Below are positions 3,582 to 23,406 of a stretch of DNA of 64,000 bases, piece after piece. The notes beneath the pieces were generated by a model. The model saw only the letters and a list, made by a program, of their open reading frames with translations, was not told the DNA's origin and did not search any database. Within the stretch, counting starts at the first letter, position 1; each line of letters opens with the position of its first letter. The stretch is from Pseudomonas sp. LS.1a (lineage in GTDB: Bacteria; Pseudomonadota; Gammaproteobacteria; Pseudomonadales; Pseudomonadaceae): contig NZ_CP092827.1 of the NCBI RefSeq assembly GCF_022533585.1, positions 4,992,001-5,056,000 of the forward strand, in the 5' to 3' direction. The translations under genes and the position numbers were made by a program.

Positions 3582-5255
3582 ATGCTGGTGCACCTGTCCA
3601 TTCACAACTACGCCATCGTCGAGCATCTCGACCTCGAGATCGCCCGCGGCATGTCCGTCATCACCGGCGAGACCGGCGCCGGTAAATCGATCATGCTCGA
3701 CGCCCTCGGCCTGGCCCTGGGTGACCGGGCCGACAGCGGCGTGGTGCGCCCCGGCACGGACAAGGCAGACATCCTCGCCACCTTCGACCTGGTGGATATC
3801 CCCGAGGCGCATGCCTGGCTGGCCGAGCGCGACCTGGACAACGACGGCCTGTGCATCCTGCGCCGGGTGATTACTGCCGAAGGCCGCAGCCGCGGCTACA
3901 TCAATGGCACGCCCTGCCCGCTCGGCGACCTCAAGGCGCTGGGCGAACTGCTGATCGACATCCACAGCCAGCACGAGCACCAGTCACTGCTCAAGACTGA
4001 TACTCACCGCCGCCTGCTCGACGAGTACGCCGGTGCCGTCGACCTGGCCCGCCAGGTGCAGCTGGCGGCCAAGCGCTGGAACCAGACCCGCCTGGAGCTG
4101 GAGCGCCTGTCCAACTCCGGCGATGAGCAGCGCGCCCGCCATCAGTTGCTGAGCTACCAACTGGAAGAACTGGACAACCTCGGCCTGGGCGAACACGAGC
4201 TGGAGCAACTGGAGCAGGAACACAAGAACCTGACCAGCGCCGAAGCCCTGTTCAGCATTTGCCGCCAGGTCATCGACCAGTGCAGCGAAAGCGATTCGGG
4301 CAATGTGCTCAGTGCCCTCACTGCCAGCCTCAACCGCCTGGGTGCCGCCACCAACTCACCAAAGGCACTGGGCGAAGCGGCCAACCTGATCGCCAGTGCG
4401 CAGATCCAGGTCGAGGAAGCCGTGGGCGAACTCAATCGCTTCCTCGACAACTTCGACGCCGACCCCATGCGCCTGCAGGCACTGGAAGAACGCCTCGACA
4501 CTATCTACACGCTGGCGCGCAAACACCGCGTGCACCCCACCGAACTGCCCCATCTGCAGCAGCAACTGATGGAAGAGCTGGAAGGCCTGAACGCCAGTGA
4601 CGAGTCAATCGAGCGCCTGGGTGAAGAACTGTCGGCCTTTGCCCAGCACTATAAAGAGAAGGCTCGCGAGCTGAGCGCACTGCGCCAGCAGGCTGCCCAG
4701 CAGCTGGCGGTGGCCGTCGAGCAGGAGATCCAGCGCCTGGGCATGCCCGGCGGGCGCTTCTGTATCGCGCTCACGCCCAACGAGGGTGCCGACCTGTCGC
4801 CTCATGGCCTGGAGCAGATCGAGCTACTGGTCAGCGCCAACCCCGGCCAACCACTCAAGGGCCTGGCCAAGGTGGCGTCAGGCGGCGAACTGTCGCGCAT
4901 CAGCCTAGCGATCCAGGTGATTACCGCTCAGACCTCGCGCATCCCCACCCTGGTGTTCGACGAGGTCGACGTCGGTATCGGCGGGCCTACTGCCGAAATC
5001 GTCGGCCAACTGCTGCGCCGCCTGGGCGAACGCGGCCAGGTGCTGACCGTAACTCACCTGCCGCAGGTCGCGGCACAGGGGCATCACCATCTGTTCGTGC
5101 ACAAGGTGCGCAACAGCGACACCACTCACACCGCCGTGGCCAGTCTGGGCAAACGCGAACGGGTCGAAGAGGTGGCGCGGATGCTGGGTGGCATCGACCT
5201 GACCAAGGAATCCCTGGCGCATGCGCGCAAGATGGTTGTAAGCGGCAAGGCCTGA
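3582..5255 (+). CDS. recN: DNA repair protein RecN (SMC-like ATPase)
   Basis: SMC-family ATPase for recombinational repair of double-strand breaks, cytoplasmic and nucleoid-associated. 557 residues, normal length. Walker A GETGAGKS is at residues 29-36. A long charged coiled-coil region occupies about 160-380 (QLEELDNLGLGEHELEQLEQ). The ABC signature VASGGELSRISLA and Walker B LVFDEVDVGIGG follow near residues 430-468, with the H-loop VTHLPQVAA after them. The ATG at 3582 gives MLVHLSIHNYAIVE, the usual family start. An overlapping LexA box predicts SOS induction. It converges on fur across a REP pair and a shared terminator. Confidence 0.98.
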   Translation: MLVHLSIHNYAIVEHLDLEIARGMSVITGETGAGKSIMLDALGLALGDRADSGVVRPGTDKADILATFDLVDIPEAHAWLAERDLDNDGLCILRRVITAEGRSRGYINGTPCPLGDLKALGELLIDIHSQHEHQSLLKTDTHRRLLDEYAGAVDLARQVQLAAKRWNQTRLELERLSNSGDEQRARHQLLSYQLEELDNLGLGEHELEQLEQEHKNLTSAEALFSICRQVIDQCSESDSGNVLSALTASLNRLGAATNSPKALGEAANLIASAQIQVEEAVGELNRFLDNFDADPMRLQALEERLDTIYTLARKHRVHPTELPHLQQQLMEELEGLNASDESIERLGEELSAFAQHYKEKARELSALRQQAAQQLAVAVEQEIQRLGMPGGRFCIALTPNEGADLSPHGLEQIELLVSANPGQPLKGLAKVASGGELSRISLAIQVITAQTSRIPTLVFDEVDVGIGGPTAEIVGQLLRRLGERGQVLTVTHLPQVAAQGHHHLFVHKVRNSDTTHTAVASLGKRERVEEVARMLGGIDLTKESLAHARKMVVSGKA

Positions 5256-5270
5256 GCCCTCCATTTTCAG

Positions 5271-8781: not shown

Positions 8782-10452
8782 ATGCAAACCTGGCAACAAC
8801 TCTATAGCCCGCTTGGTAGTCTTGGCCTGTCCGCACTGGCGGCGGTCATTCCCATCGTCTTCTTCTTCCTTGCCCTCGCCGTGTTCCGCCTCAAAGGCCA
8901 CGTGGCCGGCAGCATCACCCTCGCGTTGTCGATCCTGGTGGCAATCTTTGCCTTCCAGATGCCTGTCGACATGGCATTCGCCGCCGCGGGTTATGGCTTC
9001 CTCTACGGCCTCTGGCCGATTGCCTGGATCATCGTTGCCGCGGTGTTCCTGTACAAACTCACGGTCAAGAGCGGCCAGTTCGAAGTGATCCGCAGCTCGG
9101 TGCTGTCGATTACCGACGACCAGCGCCTGCAAGTGCTGCTGATCGGCTTCTGCTTCGGCGCCTTCCTGGAAGGTGCGGCGGGCTTTGGTGCACCGGTGGC
9201 AATCACTGCCGCGCTGCTGGTGGGCCTGGGCTTCAACCCGCTGTACGCCGCCGGCCTGTGCCTGATCGCCAATACCGCGCCAGTGGCCTTCGGCGCCCTG
9301 GGCATCCCGATCATCGTGGCCGGCCAGGTCACCGGTATCGACGCCTTCCACATTGGCGCCATGACCGGTCGCCAGCTGCCGCTGCTGTCGCTGTTCGTGC
9401 CGTTCTGGCTGGTGTTCATGATGGACGGCCTGCGTGGCGTGAAGGAAACCTGGCCTGCCGCCCTGGTCGCCGGCCTGAGCTTCGCCGTCACCCAGTACTT
9501 CACCTCGAACTTCATCGGCCCGGAGCTGCCGGACATCACCTCGGCCCTGGCCAGCCTGATCGCCCTGACCCTGTTCCTGAAAGTCTGGCAGCCCAAGCGT
9601 TCGTTCGCCGAAGCCAAAGGCAGCGTCGGCGCCGCCGTGGTGCAGCCAAGCGGCAGCCAGCCAAGCCCCTACAGCTTTGGCGAGATCTTCAAGGCCTGGT
9701 CGCCGTTCCTGATCCTCACCGTGCTGGTGACCATCTGGACCCTGAAGCCATTCAAGGCGGCCTTCGCCCCGGGCGGCGCGATGTACAACTTCGTGTTCAA
9801 CTTCGCCATCCCGCACCTTGACCAGCTGGTGATCAAGAGCGCACCGATCGTCGCCGCGCCAACCGCCATGCCAGCGGTGTTCAAGCTCGACCCGATCTCT
9901 GCCACCGGCACCGCGATCTTCCTCTCGGCGCTGATCTCCATGGCGGTGCTGAAGATTAACTTCAAAACTGGTCTGACCACTTTCAAGGAAACCTTCTGGG
10001 AACTGCGCTGGCCCATCCTGTCGATCGGCATGGTGCTGGCCTTCGCCTTCGTCACCAACTACTCGGGCATGTCCTCGACCATGGCCCTGGTGCTGGCCGG
10101 TACCGGTGCCGCGTTCCCGTTCTTCTCGCCGTTCCTCGGCTGGCTTGGCGTGTTCCTGACCGGTTCCGACACCTCGTCCAACGCCCTGTTCAGCTCGCTG
10201 CAGGCCACCACCGCACACCAGATCGGGGTCAACGACACCCTGCTGGTAGCGGCCAACACCAGCGGCGGCGTGACCGGCAAGATGATCTCGCCGCAATCGA
10301 TCGCCGTGGCCTGCGCCGCCACCGGCCTGGTCGGCAAGGAATCCGACCTGTTCCGCTTCACCGTCAAGCACAGCCTGTTCTTCGCCACCATCGTCGGCCT
10401 GATCACCCTGATCCAGGCCTACTGGCTGACCGGCATGCTGGTTCATCACTAA
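8782..10452 (+). CDS. lldP: L-lactate permease LldP
   Basis: Inner-membrane lactate/proton symporter of the LctP family, 556 residues, with about 13-14 hydrophobic segments along its length (for example [20 protein letters not shown] near the N-terminus). The family-specific segment [18 protein letters not shown] lies near residue 130 and [15 protein letters not shown] near 460. The ATG at 8782 follows GGGGCC and gives [10 protein letters not shown], the usual start. It is the first gene of lldP-lldD-dld, divergent from lldR. Confidence 0.97.
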
Positions 10453-16103: not shown

Positions 16104-16202
16104 GGCCCCGCCAAATCAATGAGTTATGTGCAGTTCCACGAAAACCCGGCTTGCCGGACACAGGGCCAGCACAAGCACCTGCTACACGAGGGAGATCGAT
16201 CA

Positions 16203-16466
16203 ATGGCCACCGAAGACACCCAATGCACAGTCGGTAAAACCATCTTCTACCAAGGTGAAAACCAGACTCACCCACTCTTTCGCATCGAGGCCGGCATCCC
16301 CTGCCAGAGCGCCCGTGAACAAGCCTCGGAACTGATGGGCTACGCGCGGGACCTGACCATCGACGGCTTGATGGAAGACAAACCGAAGCTGATCTGGGCC
16401 GCGCACTACCTCTGCGCCTTGGGCAAAGCGCTGCTGGATGACGCCGAACTCGGCATGATGCGCTGA
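16203..16466 (+). CDS. DUF3077-type small protein
   Basis: 87 residues from the ATG at 16203, preceded by GAGGGAGATC. Features typical of the DUF3077 family as I know it are the segment LFRIEAGIPCQSAREQASEL, an acidic middle and WAAHYLCALGKALLDDA near the C-terminus. It is soluble and mostly helical, with no signal peptide. DUF3077 proteins are common, often multi-copy, in Pseudomonas and have no established function. It follows a decayed neighbour in the accessory region behind ssrA. Confidence 0.72.
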   Translation: MATEDTQCTVGKTIFYQGENQTHPLFRIEAGIPCQSAREQASELMGYARDLTIDGLMEDKPKLIWAAHYLCALGKALLDDAELGMMR

Positions 16467-16699: not shown

Positions 16700-16978
16700 A
16701 TGAGCATGGCCACAATTGTAAGTGCCGTGATTTCCAGTCTCGCACCCAGTGTCTTTGACCATAACAGCCTGCAAGAACCCGGCGCGCATGTCTCTGCCGT
16801 TGAATACCACTATGGTATGAACATCGATGTGAAACGGGTATTGCAACGCACCGATACATCCGACAAGACCGGCGTGGTACCGGTGATCGTAGTGTATGAA
16901 GACAGCAACGGCGAAATTCATAAAATCCGTTTCCTCGAATGGGGTGGAAGCCCCGCCGCCCCTACTGGCATGGCCTGA
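16700..16978 (+). CDS. Small hypothetical protein
   Basis: 92 residues from the ATG at 16700, with AGAGG 11 bases upstream. The sequence begins MSMATIVSAVISSLAPSVFD and has an alternating beta-like middle (HVSAVEYHYGMNIDVKRVLQ; VVPVIVVYEDSNGEIHKIRF), so a small mixed alpha/beta fold is likely. No signal peptide, no cysteines, no family I recognise. It lies alone in the less GC-rich part of the region behind ssrA and is probably acquired DNA. Confidence 0.6.
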   Translation: MSMATIVSAVISSLAPSVFDHNSLQEPGAHVSAVEYHYGMNIDVKRVLQRTDTSDKTGVVPVIVVYEDSNGEIHKIRFLEWGGSPAAPTGMA

Positions 16979-17621: not shown

Positions 17622-18182
17622 CTATGAAGCCGTAGTCTCTATCGTGCCTGCTGTGCTGGCGACCACAAGCGCGACGATACAAGCCAGCAAAGCGAATGCC
17701 GTGAATACCGCCATCACATGCATGCATGGCATGACATGATTCCAGGCTCTAGCTACCCCCAGGAAAGCGGCGAACAGCCAACCACTCATAGAGAACGCGC
17801 CCAAGAGTGCAAGGCGTCCGCGGTCGGAACCCGGTAACAAGACGAAAGGGGCTTTTTGCAACAACGGGAAGCCGACGCAATGCAACAGACCACCGTTCAG
17901 CGTCAGCAGCGCGACAACCGCAACCTTGGCCCAGAGCTTCTGGTTGAGCAAGTACACTGTGCCCTCCAGGAGATAACCCTGAAGTATCAACAGCAGACCA
18001 CTGCCCCAAAGGGCCAGTAACGCGAGGGTGGCGATTTTCCGGGTTTCTTCCAGGTACTCATGCTTTGCCTGATCCAGCGCTTCCTTGCGCCAACTCCAGA
18101 GCTTGTGATCGGCAAGCAATACCCTGCCCAGGGCAATGCAGGTGGCGAGCAGATGAACATACACGAGGAGCATTTTCAGCAT
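17622..18182 (-). CDS. Integral membrane protein of unknown function (CopD/DUF2269-like shape)
   Basis: 186 residues from the ATG at 18182, with five hydrophobic segments: residues 2-22, about 48-75, 84-105, 122-145 and 155-180. The first helix carries a His (VYVHLLA), and further His occur at helix ends (LLHCVGF, WNHVMPCMHVM). Five-helix proteins with membrane-end histidines resemble CopD-like or DUF2269 proteins, but I cannot name a family with confidence. The upstream sequence AAGGTCAAAAAATA is a weak ribosome-binding site. The 170 bases before it are AT-rich. Confidence 0.62.
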   Translation of the reverse strand: MLKMLLVYVHLLATCIALGRVLLADHKLWSWRKEALDQAKHEYLEETRKIATLALLALWGSGLLLILQGYLLEGTVYLLNQKLWAKVAVVALLTLNGGLLHCVGFPLLQKAPFVLLPGSDRGRLALLGAFSMSGWLFAAFLGVARAWNHVMPCMHVMAVFTAFALLACIVALVVASTAGTIETTAS

Positions 18183-18353: not shown

Positions 18354-19406
18354 TCAGCTCCCCGGATAAACCAGCTCGATCTGCTCATCGAACTCCCCGC
18401 CAACTCCGCAATACTCCCTCGGAACGCGCTCAATATCTTCGGCCACCTGTGTAATCACCTGGCGCAGTTCCAGGCGTTCGAGCCAACGTGGAGGAATAGC
18501 GGCGGCACCATATTGCGCCCCCAGCAAGTGCCCGACGACCAGCCCGGTGCTACTACTGTCGCCGCTGTGATTCACCGCCATGGCCACCCCTTCTTCGAGT
18601 GACCGTGCTGTCAACGCACACCACAACCCAACCGCCAGCACTTGGTCAGCGACCCAAGCAGCGCCAAAATCGTCAATGCGTTGCGGGGTGGGTGTATAGC
18701 CCTCGTAATAGAAGAACAGCACGCGCTCGATCAAGCTGCGCGTTTCTTCCATGCCAGGCACCTGCCCGTACCTGGCCAAGCTCTGAGTCACAGCGTGCTC
18801 CAGGCTATCCTGTCGATCAACAACACGCTGGAGAATGTCGGCGAACAACCCTGCCGCCAGGTAACCGGTCGGATGCCCGTGTGTCAGTCGCCCGGACTGG
18901 GCCGCGTAGTCAAATGCATGGGCAAAGAATGCACAGGGTGCAACACGTACCAAGGCGCCGCAGCCCTTGCTGCTGTTTTCGGCAACCGCACCCAACCGCC
19001 CGCTGCCCTTGAGCGCACTCAGGCAAGTTGCATCGGGGGCACGGCGCGACCAGAGCCCCAGGTGCTTGATCAGCCAGCCATCCGTAGCCACCGGTATCGT
19101 CGAGGGGTAATCCTGTGTCGCCAGCCAGCGCAGCAACGCATGGTGAATAATGCTGGGGACATGACATGGCTGCCGTGAACTCCCCAGCACATAAGCCCGC
19201 AGCAAGCCTTCTGCGGTAAACAGCATCATCTGCGTATCGTCGCTGATCGCACCGGTGATGCCGTAAGCCGGGGCAAGATCAATGATGCCCTGCGGCCCGA
19301 ACCTGGCCTTGATCACAGGCCACTCAAGAAACTCCACGGGGGCGCCAAGCGCGTCTCCGACAGCGCCACCCAGCAGGCAGCCTTTGATCCGTTCAAGTCT
19401 GTTCAT
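18354..19406 (-). CDS. ADP-ribosylglycohydrolase family protein with altered metal site
   Basis: 350 residues from the ATG at 19406, with AAGGG upstream. A GTG at 19421 overlaps the previous gene's stop by four bases and would add MIREG. The ADP-ribosylglycohydrolase (ARH/DraG) fold shows IKGCLLGGAVGDALGAPVEF (7-26), the metal motif SDDTQ (55-59), NSSKGCGALVRVAP in the ADP-ribose loop, LTHGHPTGYLA, and near the end VNHSGDSSSTG. Family members normally read GDxDS(T) there; here the second Asp is Ser (residue 285, codon AGT). It may therefore be a weak enzyme or an ADP-ribose binder. It is cotranscribed with the coiled-coil gene and divergent from a WYL regulator. Confidence 0.88.
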   Translation of the reverse strand: MNRLERIKGCLLGGAVGDALGAPVEFLEWPVIKARFGPQGIIDLAPAYGITGAISDDTQMMLFTAEGLLRAYVLGSSRQPCHVPSIIHHALLRWLATQDYPSTIPVATDGWLIKHLGLWSRRAPDATCLSALKGSGRLGAVAENSSKGCGALVRVAPCAFFAHAFDYAAQSGRLTHGHPTGYLAAGLFADILQRVVDRQDSLEHAVTQSLARYGQVPGMEETRSLIERVLFFYYEGYTPTPQRIDDFGAAWVADQVLAVGLWCALTARSLEEGVAMAVNHSGDSSSTGLVVGHLLGAQYGAAAIPPRWLERLELRQVITQVAEDIERVPREYCGVGGEFDEQIELVYPGS

Positions 19407-19417
19407 GCCTTCCCTTA

Positions 19418-19675
19418 TCACTCTTCTGCAGAGACCAGGTTCTGCAAAAGCACCAGCTTGCTTTGCAGCTGTGCGATTTGCGCTTTGTCAGCACGCTGCG
19501 CCGAGCGTAGCTCCCGGTTTTCCATCTCCCATATCCGCGCCCAACGCGCGTCCTGGCGACAGGCGACAGCCAGGTGCCAGATTTCCCGCAACCTCAGGTA
19601 CTGCATCAAGAGCACCACCAGGATTACCCCGATCAACACCAACGCCCCTGTCGAAACCACTTCAGACATAGTCAT
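19418..19675 (-). CDS. Small membrane-anchored coiled-coil protein
   Basis: 85 residues from the ATG at 19675, with GGAAGTGG upstream. One hydrophobic helix at about residues 9-26 (STGALVLIGVILVVLLMQYL) is followed by a basic/aromatic stretch and a cytoplasmic heptad-like helix (ENRELRSAQRADKAQIAQLQ). No catalytic motif is visible. Its TGA overlaps the GTG start option of the ADP-ribosylglycohydrolase gene, so the two are translationally linked. It may localise or oligomerise the downstream protein at the inner membrane; this is inference. Confidence 0.78.
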   Translation of the reverse strand: MTMSEVVSTGALVLIGVILVVLLMQYLRLREIWHLAVACRQDARWARIWEMENRELRSAQRADKAQIAQLQSKLVLLQNLVSAEE

Positions 19676-19734
19676 GTCCACTTCCTTTCCTGGCTTCAAA
19701 TCATTTCGAAGACAGCGACAAGATATGTAGTGAT

Positions 19735-19764
19735 TTGCGACAGGTCTAGAATGTAGACTTATAC
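19735..19764 (+). promoter_or_regulatory. Putative promoter and operator of the WYL regulator
   Basis: A TTGCGA (-35, 19735-19740) and TTATAC (-10, 19759-19764) are 18 bases apart. The perfect inverted repeat GTCTA-GAATG-TAGAC (19744-19758) fills the spacer, an ideal place for autorepression. It lies in the 119-base divergent region shared with the coiled-coil / ADP-ribosylglycohydrolase operon. Confidence 0.5.
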
Positions 19765-19794
19765 AGGTAAAGTAATCGCGCACATGGAGAGGGT

Positions 19795-20670
19795 ATGAAA
19801 CGCAAGCAATCCATCGAGCAGGTACGCTGGGACCTGGCACTTCGCTATCGCTTGATCGAAACCGTTGCCTGGTGGGAAGGCCGGCTGACCACGGGCCACC
19901 TGATGCAGAGCTTTGGCATCAGCCGCCAGCAGGCGTCCAAGGACATCAATACCTACATCACCGAACATGCGCCCAAAAACTTGACATATGACAAGCAGCT
20001 CAAGGGCTACGTGCCGAGCAAGCAGTTCAAGCCGCTGTTCATCGACGACAGCGCCAGCGCCTACCTGCACCTGCTTTATCAGAACAATGAGCGGGCCCCG
20101 CACATCGACGGGCTGGCACTGGCCTATGCGCATACCCGGGTGCTGGAAGTGCCTGACCGGCCTATTCGCCCGGAGGTGCTGCGCCCCTTGCTCAAGGCCT
20201 GCCGTGAAGGCCTGCGCCTGGAAACCGAATACGTGTCCTTCAATACCCCCAACGTGGAGGTTCGCCTCATCGCCCCACACACGCTGGTCTACACCGGCAT
20301 GCGCTGGCACGTGAGGGCTTACTGCGAGAAGAATGGCCAGTACCGCGACTTCGTCCTCAGCCGCCTGCGTGGGCAGCCAGACTTGCTCGACCAATCACCG
20401 AACACGCGCGAGCAGGATGAAGACTGGAATGTCGAGGTGCCGGTCATCTTCGAACCTGATGGGCGATTGAACGCGGCGCAGAAGGCAATCATCGAAACCG
20501 ACTTCGGCATGACGCAGGGACAATTGGTGGTGCCCAGCCGCAGGGCACTGGTGAAGTACGTGTTGCAACGCTACCAGATCGACCACCGCAACCTGGCAGT
20601 GCTCCCCGAGGCGCAGCAACTGGTGGTGAGCAACCTCAAGGAACTGAAGCCGTGGCTGTTGAATGACTGA
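19795..20670 (+). CDS. WYL-domain transcriptional regulator (CapW/BrxR-like)
   Basis: 291 residues from the ATG at 19795, with GGAGAGGG just upstream. An N-terminal winged HTH (TTGHLMQSFGISRQQASKDI, residues 33-52) is followed by a WYL domain around 130-200 (TLVYTGMRWHVRAYCEKNGQ, then YRDFVLSRLRG), where the usual W-Y-L is represented by the RWHVRAY and RDFVLSRL strands. A C-terminal WCX-like domain ends at EAQQLVVSNLKELKPWLL. This three-domain build and length match CapW/BrxR repressors that control phage-defence loci. It faces the coiled-coil / ADP-ribosylglycohydrolase operon, its probable target. Confidence 0.85.
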   Translation: MKRKQSIEQVRWDLALRYRLIETVAWWEGRLTTGHLMQSFGISRQQASKDINTYITEHAPKNLTYDKQLKGYVPSKQFKPLFIDDSASAYLHLLYQNNERAPHIDGLALAYAHTRVLEVPDRPIRPEVLRPLLKACREGLRLETEYVSFNTPNVEVRLIAPHTLVYTGMRWHVRAYCEKNGQYRDFVLSRLRGQPDLLDQSPNTREQDEDWNVEVPVIFEPDGRLNAAQKAIIETDFGMTQGQLVVPSRRALVKYVLQRYQIDHRNLAVLPEAQQLVVSNLKELKPWLLND

Positions 20671-20737
20671 ATGTCGAATCCCGCGACGAGGGGCTTGATG
20701 CCCCGAGTCGCTTTGTCCAGATGCACCGCCGCCCGCT

Positions 20738-22276
20738 TCATGATTGCCCCTCAGCCAGCAACCCCTCCGGCATGGCTGGCAACGGCCGGCTCAGCAACAC
20801 GCCGACCAGCACCGCAAACAGCAGCGCCGCCACACCCGCGACCTGCAACACGGCTTCGAAGCCTCCGATGAACGCCTGACGGGCCAAGGGGGCCACCGTT
20901 TCCCGCAACCTGGGCTCAAGCAATGCCAACGCCGCGTGCAAATCACCCGCAGCAACCCGCGTGGCCATCGCGGCAACCTGGCCCGATTGCCCGGGCGCCA
21001 CGGCAGCCATGGATTCATGCAGCAACTGCCCACTACGTGCAGCCAACACACCACCCAGCCCCCCGATGGCCAGCACGATCGCCCCGAACCGCGTGGTTGT
21101 ACTCAACCCCGAAGCCATGCCCGTGCGCTCACGCGGCACGCAAGCCATGATGTTCTTCTGCGTATCGCCATTCAGCAGCCCGGCACCAGCGCCCAGCACC
21201 AGGCTGGCCAGGGCGAATGCGCTATAGCCGCCATGGCCCGCAGCCCAGGCGCACAGCAGGTTACCCGCCCCCACCAGCACCAGCCCAAGCGCGAACACCT
21301 GCGCCGGGCTCAAGTGCGCAGCCAGGCGCATGCCCAGACGTGGCGTCAGCAGCATGGCCACGGCAAACGGCAGCATGCCCGCCCCTGCAGCCAGGGCCGA
21401 CAACTGCAGGCCGTTCTGCAAGTAAAGCGGCAGCAGGGTCATCATCACCTGGGCGCAGGCGGCGTAGGCGAACATGCCCAGCAAGGCGCCAACGAAGCGC
21501 CCGCTACGCATCAGCCGCAGGTCTATCATCGGCCGTTCCTGGCTGCGCTCGACCATGACGAACAGGCCGAACAGGAAGGCACTGATCACCAGTCGACCGA
21601 GGGTTTGCGCGCTGCCCCAGCCCACCTGGTTGGCATCGATCATCGCCCAGATCAGGTAACCCAGGCTGCCGGCGAAGGTCAGGCTGCCCCACGGGTCGAG
21701 CCGGGCCGCAGCGCTGTCGCGGGACTCCTCGACACTGCGCAGCACCATTACCGCAAGCAGCGCCACCAACGGCAAGTTGATGTAGAAGATCCAGCGCCAG
21801 CCCAGGGTACTGGCGATCACCCCGCCCAGCAGCGGCGCAAAGGTGATGGTGGCGCCCATGCAGGCGCCCCAGAAGGCCCAGGCGCGCATGCGCTCCTGGG
21901 GCTGGTGGAAGCGGTTGCCGATCGCAGCCAGGGCCGAGGTCAGCAACAACGCCGCACCAACGCCCTTGGCTGCCCTGGCCAGGTCGAGGAACAGCAGGTT
22001 GGGCGCCGCGCCGCAGGCCAGTGAAGCAAGGCCGAACAGGGCCAGGCCGAGCAGCAGCATGCGGCGACGGCCAAAGCGGTCGGCCAGGCTGCCGGCGGGC
22101 AGCAGGCAGGCGGCGAAGGCCAGCAGGTAGGCGCTGACCACCCATTCGATATCGGCGAACGAGCCGGACAGGTCGCGGGCGATGCTGGGCAGGCTGACCG
22201 CGACGATGTTGGTGTCGAGGATGATCAGGGCGCAGACCAGGGAGGCGGTGAGCAGGGTGAAACGCGCAGAGGGCAT
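20738..22276 (-). CDS. MFS transporter, DHA2 (14-helix) drug-exporter type
   Basis: 512 residues from the ATG at 22276 (MPSARFTLLTASL), with GGAGTC upstream. The major facilitator signature is present: motif A GSLADRFGRRRM after helix 2, motif C-like GPxxGG region FAPLLGGVIASTLGWRW after helix 5. About 14 hydrophobic segments and a long loop between the last two (VAPGQSGQVAAMATRVAAGD) are typical of DHA2 exporters such as EmrB/QacA-like proteins. Substrate unknown. It is divergent from a LysR regulator that probably controls it. The start MDTNIV-like stretch LDTNIVAVSLPSIA is motif D1. Confidence 0.92.
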   Translation of the reverse strand: MPSARFTLLTASLVCALIILDTNIVAVSLPSIARDLSGSFADIEWVVSAYLLAFAACLLPAGSLADRFGRRRMLLLGLALFGLASLACGAAPNLLFLDLARAAKGVGAALLLTSALAAIGNRFHQPQERMRAWAFWGACMGATITFAPLLGGVIASTLGWRWIFYINLPLVALLAVMVLRSVEESRDSAAARLDPWGSLTFAGSLGYLIWAMIDANQVGWGSAQTLGRLVISAFLFGLFVMVERSQERPMIDLRLMRSGRFVGALLGMFAYAACAQVMMTLLPLYLQNGLQLSALAAGAGMLPFAVAMLLTPRLGMRLAAHLSPAQVFALGLVLVGAGNLLCAWAAGHGGYSAFALASLVLGAGAGLLNGDTQKNIMACVPRERTGMASGLSTTTRFGAIVLAIGGLGGVLAARSGQLLHESMAAVAPGQSGQVAAMATRVAAGDLHAALALLEPRLRETVAPLARQAFIGGFEAVLQVAGVAALLFAVLVGVLLSRPLPAMPEGLLAEGQS

Positions 22277-22334
22277 GGTGAGACTCCGGATGCAGGGCTG
22301 GTTGGATTTGGCGGTGTTGTTGGCTTGCAAGATC

Positions 22335-22380
22335 GCCGGGGGCTGCTTTGCAGCCCATCGCAGGCAAGCCAGCTCCTACA
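22335..22380. repeat. Pseudomonas intergenic repeat with hairpin
   Basis: Contains GGGCTGC-TTT-GCAGCCC and the flanking sequence GCAAGCCAGCTCCTACAG, a form common in P. putida intergenic repeats but different from the GCGGGTTTACCCGC type seen elsewhere here. It lies between the divergent MFS and LysR genes. Confidence 0.5.
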
Positions 22381-22522
22381 GAAACCGCACCGCCTTCGAG
22401 GATTGCGCAATACCTGTAGCAACCCCCAGGCAGCCTTTGCCGCCAAGCCACCAGCCTTGTAGTGTTGGCCTCAACATAACGCCGCCAGCCCCCAGGCTTG
22501 TTAGCCCCGGCGGCCCGCGTCA

Positions 22523-22537
22523 TTACCCTGTAGGTAA
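22523..22537. promoter_or_regulatory. Short inverted repeat at the LysR-gene start
   Basis: TTACC-CTGTA-GGTAA, a perfect 5-base inverted repeat five bases before the ATG at 22543. It could be an autoregulatory site; short enough to be chance. Confidence 0.3.
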
Positions 22538-22542
22538 CACCC

Positions 22543-23406
22543 ATGGAAATCCGCCATTTCCGCTACTTCCTCTGCGTCGCCCGCCACGGTCACTTCACCC
22601 GCGCCGCCGAGCAACTGGGCATCGCTCCGCCCACCCTCAGCCGGCAGATCCAGGACATGGAGCGCGAACTGGGCGTGCGCCTGTTCGAGCGCAACCAGCG
22701 CGAGGTCAACCTCACCGCCGCCGGCCAGGCGCTGTTGATCGAGGCCGAACATGCCGTACGCCAGTTCGACGCCGCGCAACTGGGCGCGCAACGGGCCGCC
22801 CGAGGCGAAAGCGGGCGCATCGAACTGGGCTATGTGGCCTCGGCCGCTTACTCGGGCATGCTCCAGCAGCAAGTCAGCCGCTACAGCGAAACCTGCCCCG
22901 GTGTGCGCTTGAACATTCGCGAACTGCCCATGACCGAACTGCCCGGCATGGTCCGCGATGGCCTGCTCGACCTTGCCTATGTGCGCTCGCCGATGGAGCT
23001 GCCCGGAGAGCTCGAAGCCATCGCCTTGCACCAGGAAGGTTTCGTCCTGGCCCTGCCCGCCAGCTCGCGGATCAATGAAGTTCCGCAGATCCCGGCTTCG
23101 CGCCTGGCCAATGAAACCTTCATCCTGCCCGAGCAGATCTCCGGGACGCTGGAGGTAGCAGCACAAGGTGGCTTCGTCCCGAGGCTCGGCCCACAGCCGG
23201 GTAGCCTGGTGGCGGTGATCACCCTGGTGTCACTCGGCCAAGGCATCGCAGTGGTGCCGGAATCGGTGGTACAGCGCATCAGCCTGCCGCAGGTGAACTA
23301 CCGGCGTATTGTCGACTGCCAGGCCAGCTCGTGGCTTAGCCTGATTCACCGGCGCTTCGAGAAAGCGCCAGCGACAATCAGCTACATCAAGATGATGAAA
23401 GGCTGA
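22543..23406 (+). CDS. LysR-family transcriptional regulator
   Basis: 287 residues. The N-terminal winged HTH of LysR type (MEIRHFRYFLCVARHGHFTR, then AAEQLGIAPPTLSRQIQDME) is followed by a linker helix and a periplasmic-binding-protein-like effector domain (GRIELGYVASAAYSGMLQQQ; LVAVITLVSLGQGIAVVPES). The family acts as tetramers activated by a small co-inducer, not predictable here. It is divergent from the DHA2 exporter, the arrangement expected for a regulator and its target. It ends at a strong terminator shared with gabP. Confidence 0.94.
   Translation: MEIRHFRYFLCVARHGHFTRAAEQLGIAPPTLSRQIQDMERELGVRLFERNQREVNLTAAGQALLIEAEHAVRQFDAAQLGAQRAARGESGRIELGYVASAAYSGMLQQQVSRYSETCPGVRLNIRELPMTELPGMVRDGLLDLAYVRSPMELPGELEAIALHQEGFVLALPASSRINEVPQIPASRLANETFILPEQISGTLEVAAQGGFVPRLGPQPGSLVAVITLVSLGQGIAVVPESVVQRISLPQVNYRRIVDCQASSWLSLIHRRFEKAPATISYIKMMKG

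Follow-up and report, generated by a model that had tools for sequence, protein, structure and literature searches.

The window, by which we mean the whole analysed stretch of 64,000 nucleotides, contains a gene for a WYL regulator that is divergent from a pair of genes on the opposite strand, which encode a single-helix protein and an ADP-ribosylhydrolase (ARH) homolog, respectively (Table 1). This arrangement had been described in an earlier note on the sequence and is real. The GTGA overlap that the note placed between the helix and ARH genes was not supported, as the most likely start of the ARH gene is the ATG at position 19406, located 11 nt downstream of the helix gene.

Table 1 Features of the three-gene module, by position in the window
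Feature	Position	Strand	Description
WYL regulator gene	19795..20670	+	BrxR/CapW-type wHTH-WYL protein, 291 aa
Helix protein gene	19418..19675	-	Single-helix protein, 85 aa; N-terminal half hydrophobic, C-terminal half charged, coiled-coil-like
ARH gene	18354..19406	-	ADP-ribosylhydrolase (ARH/DraG family) homolog, 350 aa, ATG start
ARH metal motif 1	19233..19244	-	Residues 55-58, Ser-Asp-Asp-Thr; Asp56 and Asp57 kept
ARH metal motif 2	18546..18563	-	Residues 282-287, Gly-Asp-Ser-Ser-Ser-Thr; Ser at 285, Asp285 in intact relatives
Divergent intergenic region	19676-19794		Whole region between regulator and helix genes
Conserved block	19720..19791	none	Within the divergent intergenic region
Inverted repeat	19744..19758	none	GTCTA-GAATG-TAGAC, candidate operator

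The only Pfam match of the helix protein, to Musclin (0.061), was below the cut-off, no NCBIfam model matched it, and no PADLOC model matched either the helix protein or the ARH. In the comparison with Kh13 (locus L128), the regulator, ARH, and helix genes had dN/dS values of 0, 0.10, and 0.44, respectively, the ARH motifs being the same in both copies. It was also noted that genes for small DUF3077 (16119-16466) and DUF2790 (16700-16978) proteins are located between the tmRNA and the module. A 186-aa membrane-like protein (17622-18182) without a Pfam match above the cut-off has been kept at the site in genomes G103, G145, and G072.

A panel of 149 Pseudomonas genomes was searched for ARHs with 57% identity or more across 330 or more residues. 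Besides the window, these were found at 14 places, and the regulator and helix genes adjoined the ARH gene in 12 of these. The regulator gene at locus L100 was split over 2 frames. A second scan, of named genomes, identified 77 ARH loci, 36 of which, at varied sites, contained the triple, defined as a match to the helix protein no more than 600 bp from the ARH gene plus one to the regulator at up to 690 bp (the latter only partial in L148 and L177). The 2 panels have genomes in common and are therefore not independent. Recurrence of the triple at unrelated loci was the test that the earlier note had set for its interpretation, and the outcome is positive. The ARH gene is optional, since it was absent from 15 pairs of regulator and helix genes at 14 of 37 fetched loci, which had been chosen from the search matches.

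The flank adjoining the window module had more than 200 bp in common only with L128, and a similar transporter stretch in L135 and L136 was located at least 7 kb from the regulator gene. The triple was also found on a plasmid of P. veronii. As regards a phage origin, viral contigs contained a single partial ARH relative, 15 phage records contained ARHs of less than 60% identity and 2 phage records contained relatives of the regulator. A zinc-ribbon-like protein of 66 to 75 aa was encoded after the ARH or helix gene at 9 loci (L098, at 9015-9218, L093, L094, L096, L099, L108, L109, L113, and L114) and within 300 bp after the ARH gene in 23 of the 36 triples; none was found in the window.

Many of the triples are located close to defence genes. 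PADLOC models matched 16 of 20 neighbour proteins at a threshold of 1e-5, including BrxA, BrxB, BrxC, PglX, LeoA, IetA, a type I restriction enzyme, MkoA, HerA, BnzA, and HEC-06; the match to the dynamin LeoBC had a value of 6e-13, and those to ZorA and ZorB were weak (1e-12 and 2e-18). No PADLOC match was obtained for the remaining 4, an ankyrin protein (L096), a GTPase (L108), a protein of 493 aa (L118), and the zinc ribbon protein. We used 19 marker proteins, of which 18 were counted (WYL2 was not); these included the L108 GTPase, without PADLOC support, and BrxA2 and BrxC2 from L171, which were outside the PADLOC comparison (BrxA2 had no Pfam match and its neighbour a BrxB match below the cut-off). 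A marker was located within about 10 kb of 29 of the 36 triples (27 without the IetA marker) compared to 10 of the 41 other ARH loci (8 without IetA) and 0 of 20 arbitrary stretches of 20 kb from as many Pseudomonas genomes, all cut at a single fixed coordinate, an enrichment that is partly circular since the markers were drawn from such loci. The 7 triples without a marker were L128, L137, L149, L156, L157, L160, and L176.

In 4 Pseudomonas records (L142, L146, L154, and L155), the genes brxA-brxB-brxC-pglX were located downstream of the ARH gene, with brxA following within about 0.2 to 0.4 kb; the gene names are those that PADLOC assigned at L097. The BrxA, BrxB, and BrxC proteins of these loci were 97% to 100% identical to those of L097 (L154 is the L097 locus), and such near-identical genes after the triple suggest recent island transfer. 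BREX-like genes were also located downstream of the ARH gene in L171, L180, and L182, which belong to other branches. For comparison, 212 of 347 BrxR homologs have a defence system no more than 50 kb away, according to the available text of PMC9122601. Taken together, the triple is very likely a regulatory header of phage-defence islands in Pseudomonas. The suggestion in the earlier note of a defence module is supported in part, by the neighbours of most relatives. In the window itself, no defence marker, BREX genes such as brxC and pglX included, was found in the 64,000 nt, and the only PADLOC matches beside the module, among the window proteins scanned, were to the WYL models of the regulator itself. 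The window copy would be an orphan header, with no known defence genes adjoining.

The regulator, a wHTH-WYL protein of about 290 aa, was most similar to BrxR and CapW, with E values of 9.6e-65 and 2.8e-42, respectively. It shares length and domain order with these proteins (7t8k and 7tb6) and, in most relatives with the triple, defence neighbours, but heads a helix-ARH operon, of a kind that is not described for them in the available text of PMC9122601 and PMC9122589. Among 34 intergenic regions compared, the block that contains the inverted repeat was strongly conserved. An operator-like 28-mer, allowing up to 2 mismatches, had 24 matches in 18 of the 149 genomes, whereas the reversed pattern, used as a control, had none. 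By their coordinates, 23 of these matches precede a regulator gene, or a remnant of one, by 24 bp, and the remaining match (G077) does so by 255 bp. The 28-mer was present at only 22 of 43 full-length regulator copies of at least 72% identity in the coordinate comparison, and the other close regulators must use a diverged site or none. A simple scan revealed no sigma-70-like promoter. The BrxR protein of pEFER binds arms of 11 bp with a 5-bp spacer (PMC9122601, in the text available), and R-BOX1 of pEFER and the window repeat are both upstream inverted repeats with a spacer of 5 bp, but the arms of R-BOX1 are 11 bp with one mismatch, whereas the perfect arms in the window are only 5 bp long. 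We consider the repeat a candidate operator for the WYL regulator. A second, larger WYL-WCX regulator of about 350 aa (L171:6441-7514 and 8 other loci) was observed near ARH genes of other branches, where the triple was absent: of the 32 non-triple loci examined, 9 had it no more than a few kb from the ARH gene, and in 6 the two genes were directly divergent.

The ARH protein of the window has the ADP-ribosylglycohydrolase fold and matches the Pfam model of the family, while the NCBIfam models for DraG and Tri1 matched far below their cut-offs. Among the families listed by Foldseek/VIA, it matched the structures of 2 toxin-immunity ARHs, Tri1 and Lmo0067 (6dre and 8za7), with which it shares the fold; unlike for these, no partner transferase was seen beside the gene in the scans made. 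Residues were numbered after ARH3 by the motifs and an aligned stretch of 6d36 (268-328 to 302-362, with a chain offset of 3 residues), so that D56, D57, D283, and D285 correspond to Asp77, Asp78, Asp314, and Asp316. The second motif reads Gly-Asp-Ser-Asp-Ser-Thr in intact relatives, and the binuclear metal site (T/S-D-D and D-x-D-S/T) is incomplete in the window protein, in which the second aspartate of this motif, present in ARH3, ARH1, and DraG, is replaced by serine.

Such changes were found to be common. At least one of the 4 metal-ligand aspartates was lost in 65 of 160 ARH sequences, and both D57 and D285 were absent from 27 of these 160. When intact motifs were defined as Asp56, Asp57, Thr58, Asp283, Asp285, and Ser/Thr286, they were changed in 50 of the best 120 homologs (query counted) among 8000 scored candidates, and in 19 of the 36 triples, with all ligands kept in the other 17. 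The 41 non-triple loci contained 30 intact ARHs, and 4 of the other 11 were incomplete at the motifs. Paralogous ARHs in Pseudomonas kept all ligands in 13 of 14 cases (loci L016 to L030 except L021, a broken ortholog in G070 that dropped out of the alignment), versus 17 of 36 for the triples (Fisher P = 0.003), and all ligands were also kept in each of 8 solitary ARHs from a branch shared with the triple ARHs (L158, L159, and L161 to L166).

The number of changes was estimated by parsimony on a phylogeny that FastTree inferred from 160 ingroup and 35 outgroup sequences (195 in all) with the motif columns left out. We obtained 15 changes each for D57 and D285, 11 for D283, 8 for S286, 6 for D56, and 2 for T58. 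Together with R74, which also had 15 changes and is no known ligand, D57 and D285 were the most-changed of 119 columns conserved in the outgroup; other fast columns were A256 (14), F26 (13), and M153 (13). The 6 motif columns had a mean of 9.5 changes, compared to 2.46 for the 113 other columns (permutation P about 2e-4). Conflict with DarT-type defence was considered as a cause of the ligand loss and set aside, as no link was seen among the few matches to DarT; these were found in 2 of 34 genomes (the window genome and 33 others holding 35 of the 36 triples, L148 being left out), namely G165, which contained both an intact (L145) and a ligand-lost copy (L154), and G176, in which the copy was intact (L160).

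For ARH3, the available text of PMC8141533 reports that alanine mutants of all 4 aspartates are inactive on ADP-ribosyl-serine, with some activity on poly-ADP-ribose left in D314A and nearly none in the Asp316 mutant. Asp77 and Asp314 contact both metal and ADP-ribose, while Asp78 and Asp316 contact metal but not ADP-ribose, and Asp316 is listed as coordinating both metals. The window ARH thus seems to have lost part of the metal-holding site while keeping most of the binding pocket, and it probably lacks normal catalysis. Reversal of ADP-ribosylation is doubtful for the window copy with its serine in place of Asp285. In ARH3, loss of the first metal (D77A) makes binding of ADP-ribose 23-fold tighter, whereas loss of the second magnesium (D314A) makes it 44-fold weaker (PMC8141533, same text). 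Binding may thus be favoured where D57 has been lost. The change of D285 in the window could instead weaken it, since the matching Asp316 holds both metals, and this lowers our confidence in a binding role. The frequent change of D283, which is expected to touch ADP-ribose, also counts against such a role. That the window ARH acts by binding ADP-ribose is a suggestion that we regard as rather doubtful when taken by itself.

One rival explanation, which we consider unlikely, is an active system of the ARG type predicted by Iyer et al. (2022, PMC9503650), in which the ARH would remove viral ADP-ribosylation, the freed ADP-ribose would induce the WYL regulator, and the residue changes would weaken rather than abolish activity. 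The available text of that paper predicts ARG systems that counter viral ADP-ribosylation and include WYL or Nudix regulators, and an association of WYL and ARG genes in many bacteria. The window module and its relatives share with these systems an ARH gene and a WYL regulator without a coupled transferase (in the window, among the proteins scanned), as well as variable defence-type genes in the relatives; the intact ligands in 17 triples and the larger WYL-WCX regulators at the non-triple loci also fit. The inactivity of the ARH3 Asp316 mutant and the 27 sequences lacking both D57 and D285 argue against it. The module differs by its helix gene, by its frequent ligand loss, and by the BREX, dynamin-like, and Zorya-like neighbours of its relatives, and neither a phosphatase nor a peptide-binding chaperone was found among the 8 window proteins scanned; a phosphatase is a partner in a little over 55% of ARG systems and thus not universal (PMC9503650, same text).

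Alternatively, the ARH could be a decaying passenger, the activity of which is neutral or harmful, so that changes in the active site build up before the gene is lost. The module is indeed being lost in close relatives. In genome G103, about 18392-23310 is missing. Both break points fall within genes (ARH and LysR) and have a short TCGA in common, which reads as a deletion and led us to reject G103 as a clean empty site. Genome G145 contains other DNA at the site. In G072 (L227, about 5108-5264), internal deletions have left only parts of the helix and regulator genes, next to the transporter and LysR genes. The ARH gene was broken or fragmentary in 3 panel genomes, G052, G060, and G070. Furthermore, several neighbours in the active site change too. 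Of the 56 sequences that lack D57, D285, or both, E25 was kept in 45 and M153 in 12, compared to 101 and 91 of the 104 other sequences, respectively, and T55 was also less kept (mostly Thr to Ser), as was D283 to a smaller degree. The pattern for E25, T55, and M153 fits a general weakening of the active site as well. Nevertheless, the changes focus on the metal ligands and many pocket residues are constant, with N144, S146, K147, T175, H176, H178, N279, and H280 kept in 56 of 56 ligand-lost sequences. The dN/dS values of the ARH gene in the window against 8 relatives were about 0.10 to 0.16, and the median was 0.135 among ligand-lost copies (19 copies, 115 pairs) versus 0.104 among intact copies (21 copies, 80 pairs); the medians are for pairs with dS of 0.02 to 1.2, with the window gene lacking its first codon. 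We therefore regard simple decay as quite unlikely.

The patchy distribution and the deletions at the site in close relatives also fit poorly with a house-keeping ADP-ribose sensor, the other role that the earlier note had considered. Its proposal of a tmRNA-linked variable site was not supported; with up to 3 mismatches, the terminal 20 nt of the tmRNA matched the window once, and the deletions in relatives end at the module rather than at the tmRNA.

It is improbable that the ARH has an immunity-type function, in which it would neutralise an ADP-ribosyltransferase physically, with catalysis dispensable, in the way that the Tri1 immunity protein blocks its transferase by contact: the structural match to the toxin-immunity ARHs fits, but the scans of neighbouring proteins named no transferase, and the only targeted search, for DarT, gave the 2 genomes above.

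We tentatively prefer, at somewhat less than even confidence, a self-regulated header of phage-defence islands, in which the ARH of the window copy lacks normal hydrolysis and acts by binding. The loss of ligands with the rest of the pocket under purifying selection is most readily read as lost hydrolysis and action by binding. In such a header, the WYL protein, as a BrxR-family repressor, would most likely bind the conserved intergenic block and repress the divergent operon as well as itself until released by a ligand related to infection; the available text of PMC9122601 names no ligand that releases BrxR. Derepression would yield the membrane helix protein, perhaps, as a guess, an anchor or scaffold, alongside the ARH-fold protein. 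Those ARHs with intact metal sites could strip ADP-ribose added by phages from host targets, as in the ARG proposal of Iyer et al. (2022), whereas the ligand-lost ARHs may serve as a reader, shield, or trap for ADP-ribose or ADP-ribosylated targets.

Host counter-measures to phage ADP-ribosylation are predictions in the available text of PMC9503650. WYL-ARG systems were already predicted in 2022, and the recurrent loss of metal ligands appears, from the sequences compared, to be the new point. Neither the helix-ARH header nor the ligand loss is mentioned in the available text of PMC9503650, PMC9122601, PMC9122589, PMC12255303, PMC12839542, PMC10270631, and PMC12409345, and a search of titles and abstract openings, mostly outside the subscription literature, found no published report for ARH with BREX, defence islands, WYL, anti-phage hydrolases, Pseudomonas hotspots, or pseudoenzymes. 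The broader idea that ARHs at the head of Pseudomonas defence islands have repeatedly turned, in independent events, into metal-poor readers of ADP-ribose, coupled to a membrane helix and a switch of the BrxR type, and act as a sensor or shield rather than an eraser, is a speculative one that we hold to be unlikely as it stands. The combination of such a switch with an ARH that has many natural changes of its metal ligands provides a natural set of variants for asking whether defence removes or recognises ADP-ribose. If the reader model is true, these islands would hold a sensor or shield for ADP-ribosylation made by phages in place of an eraser.
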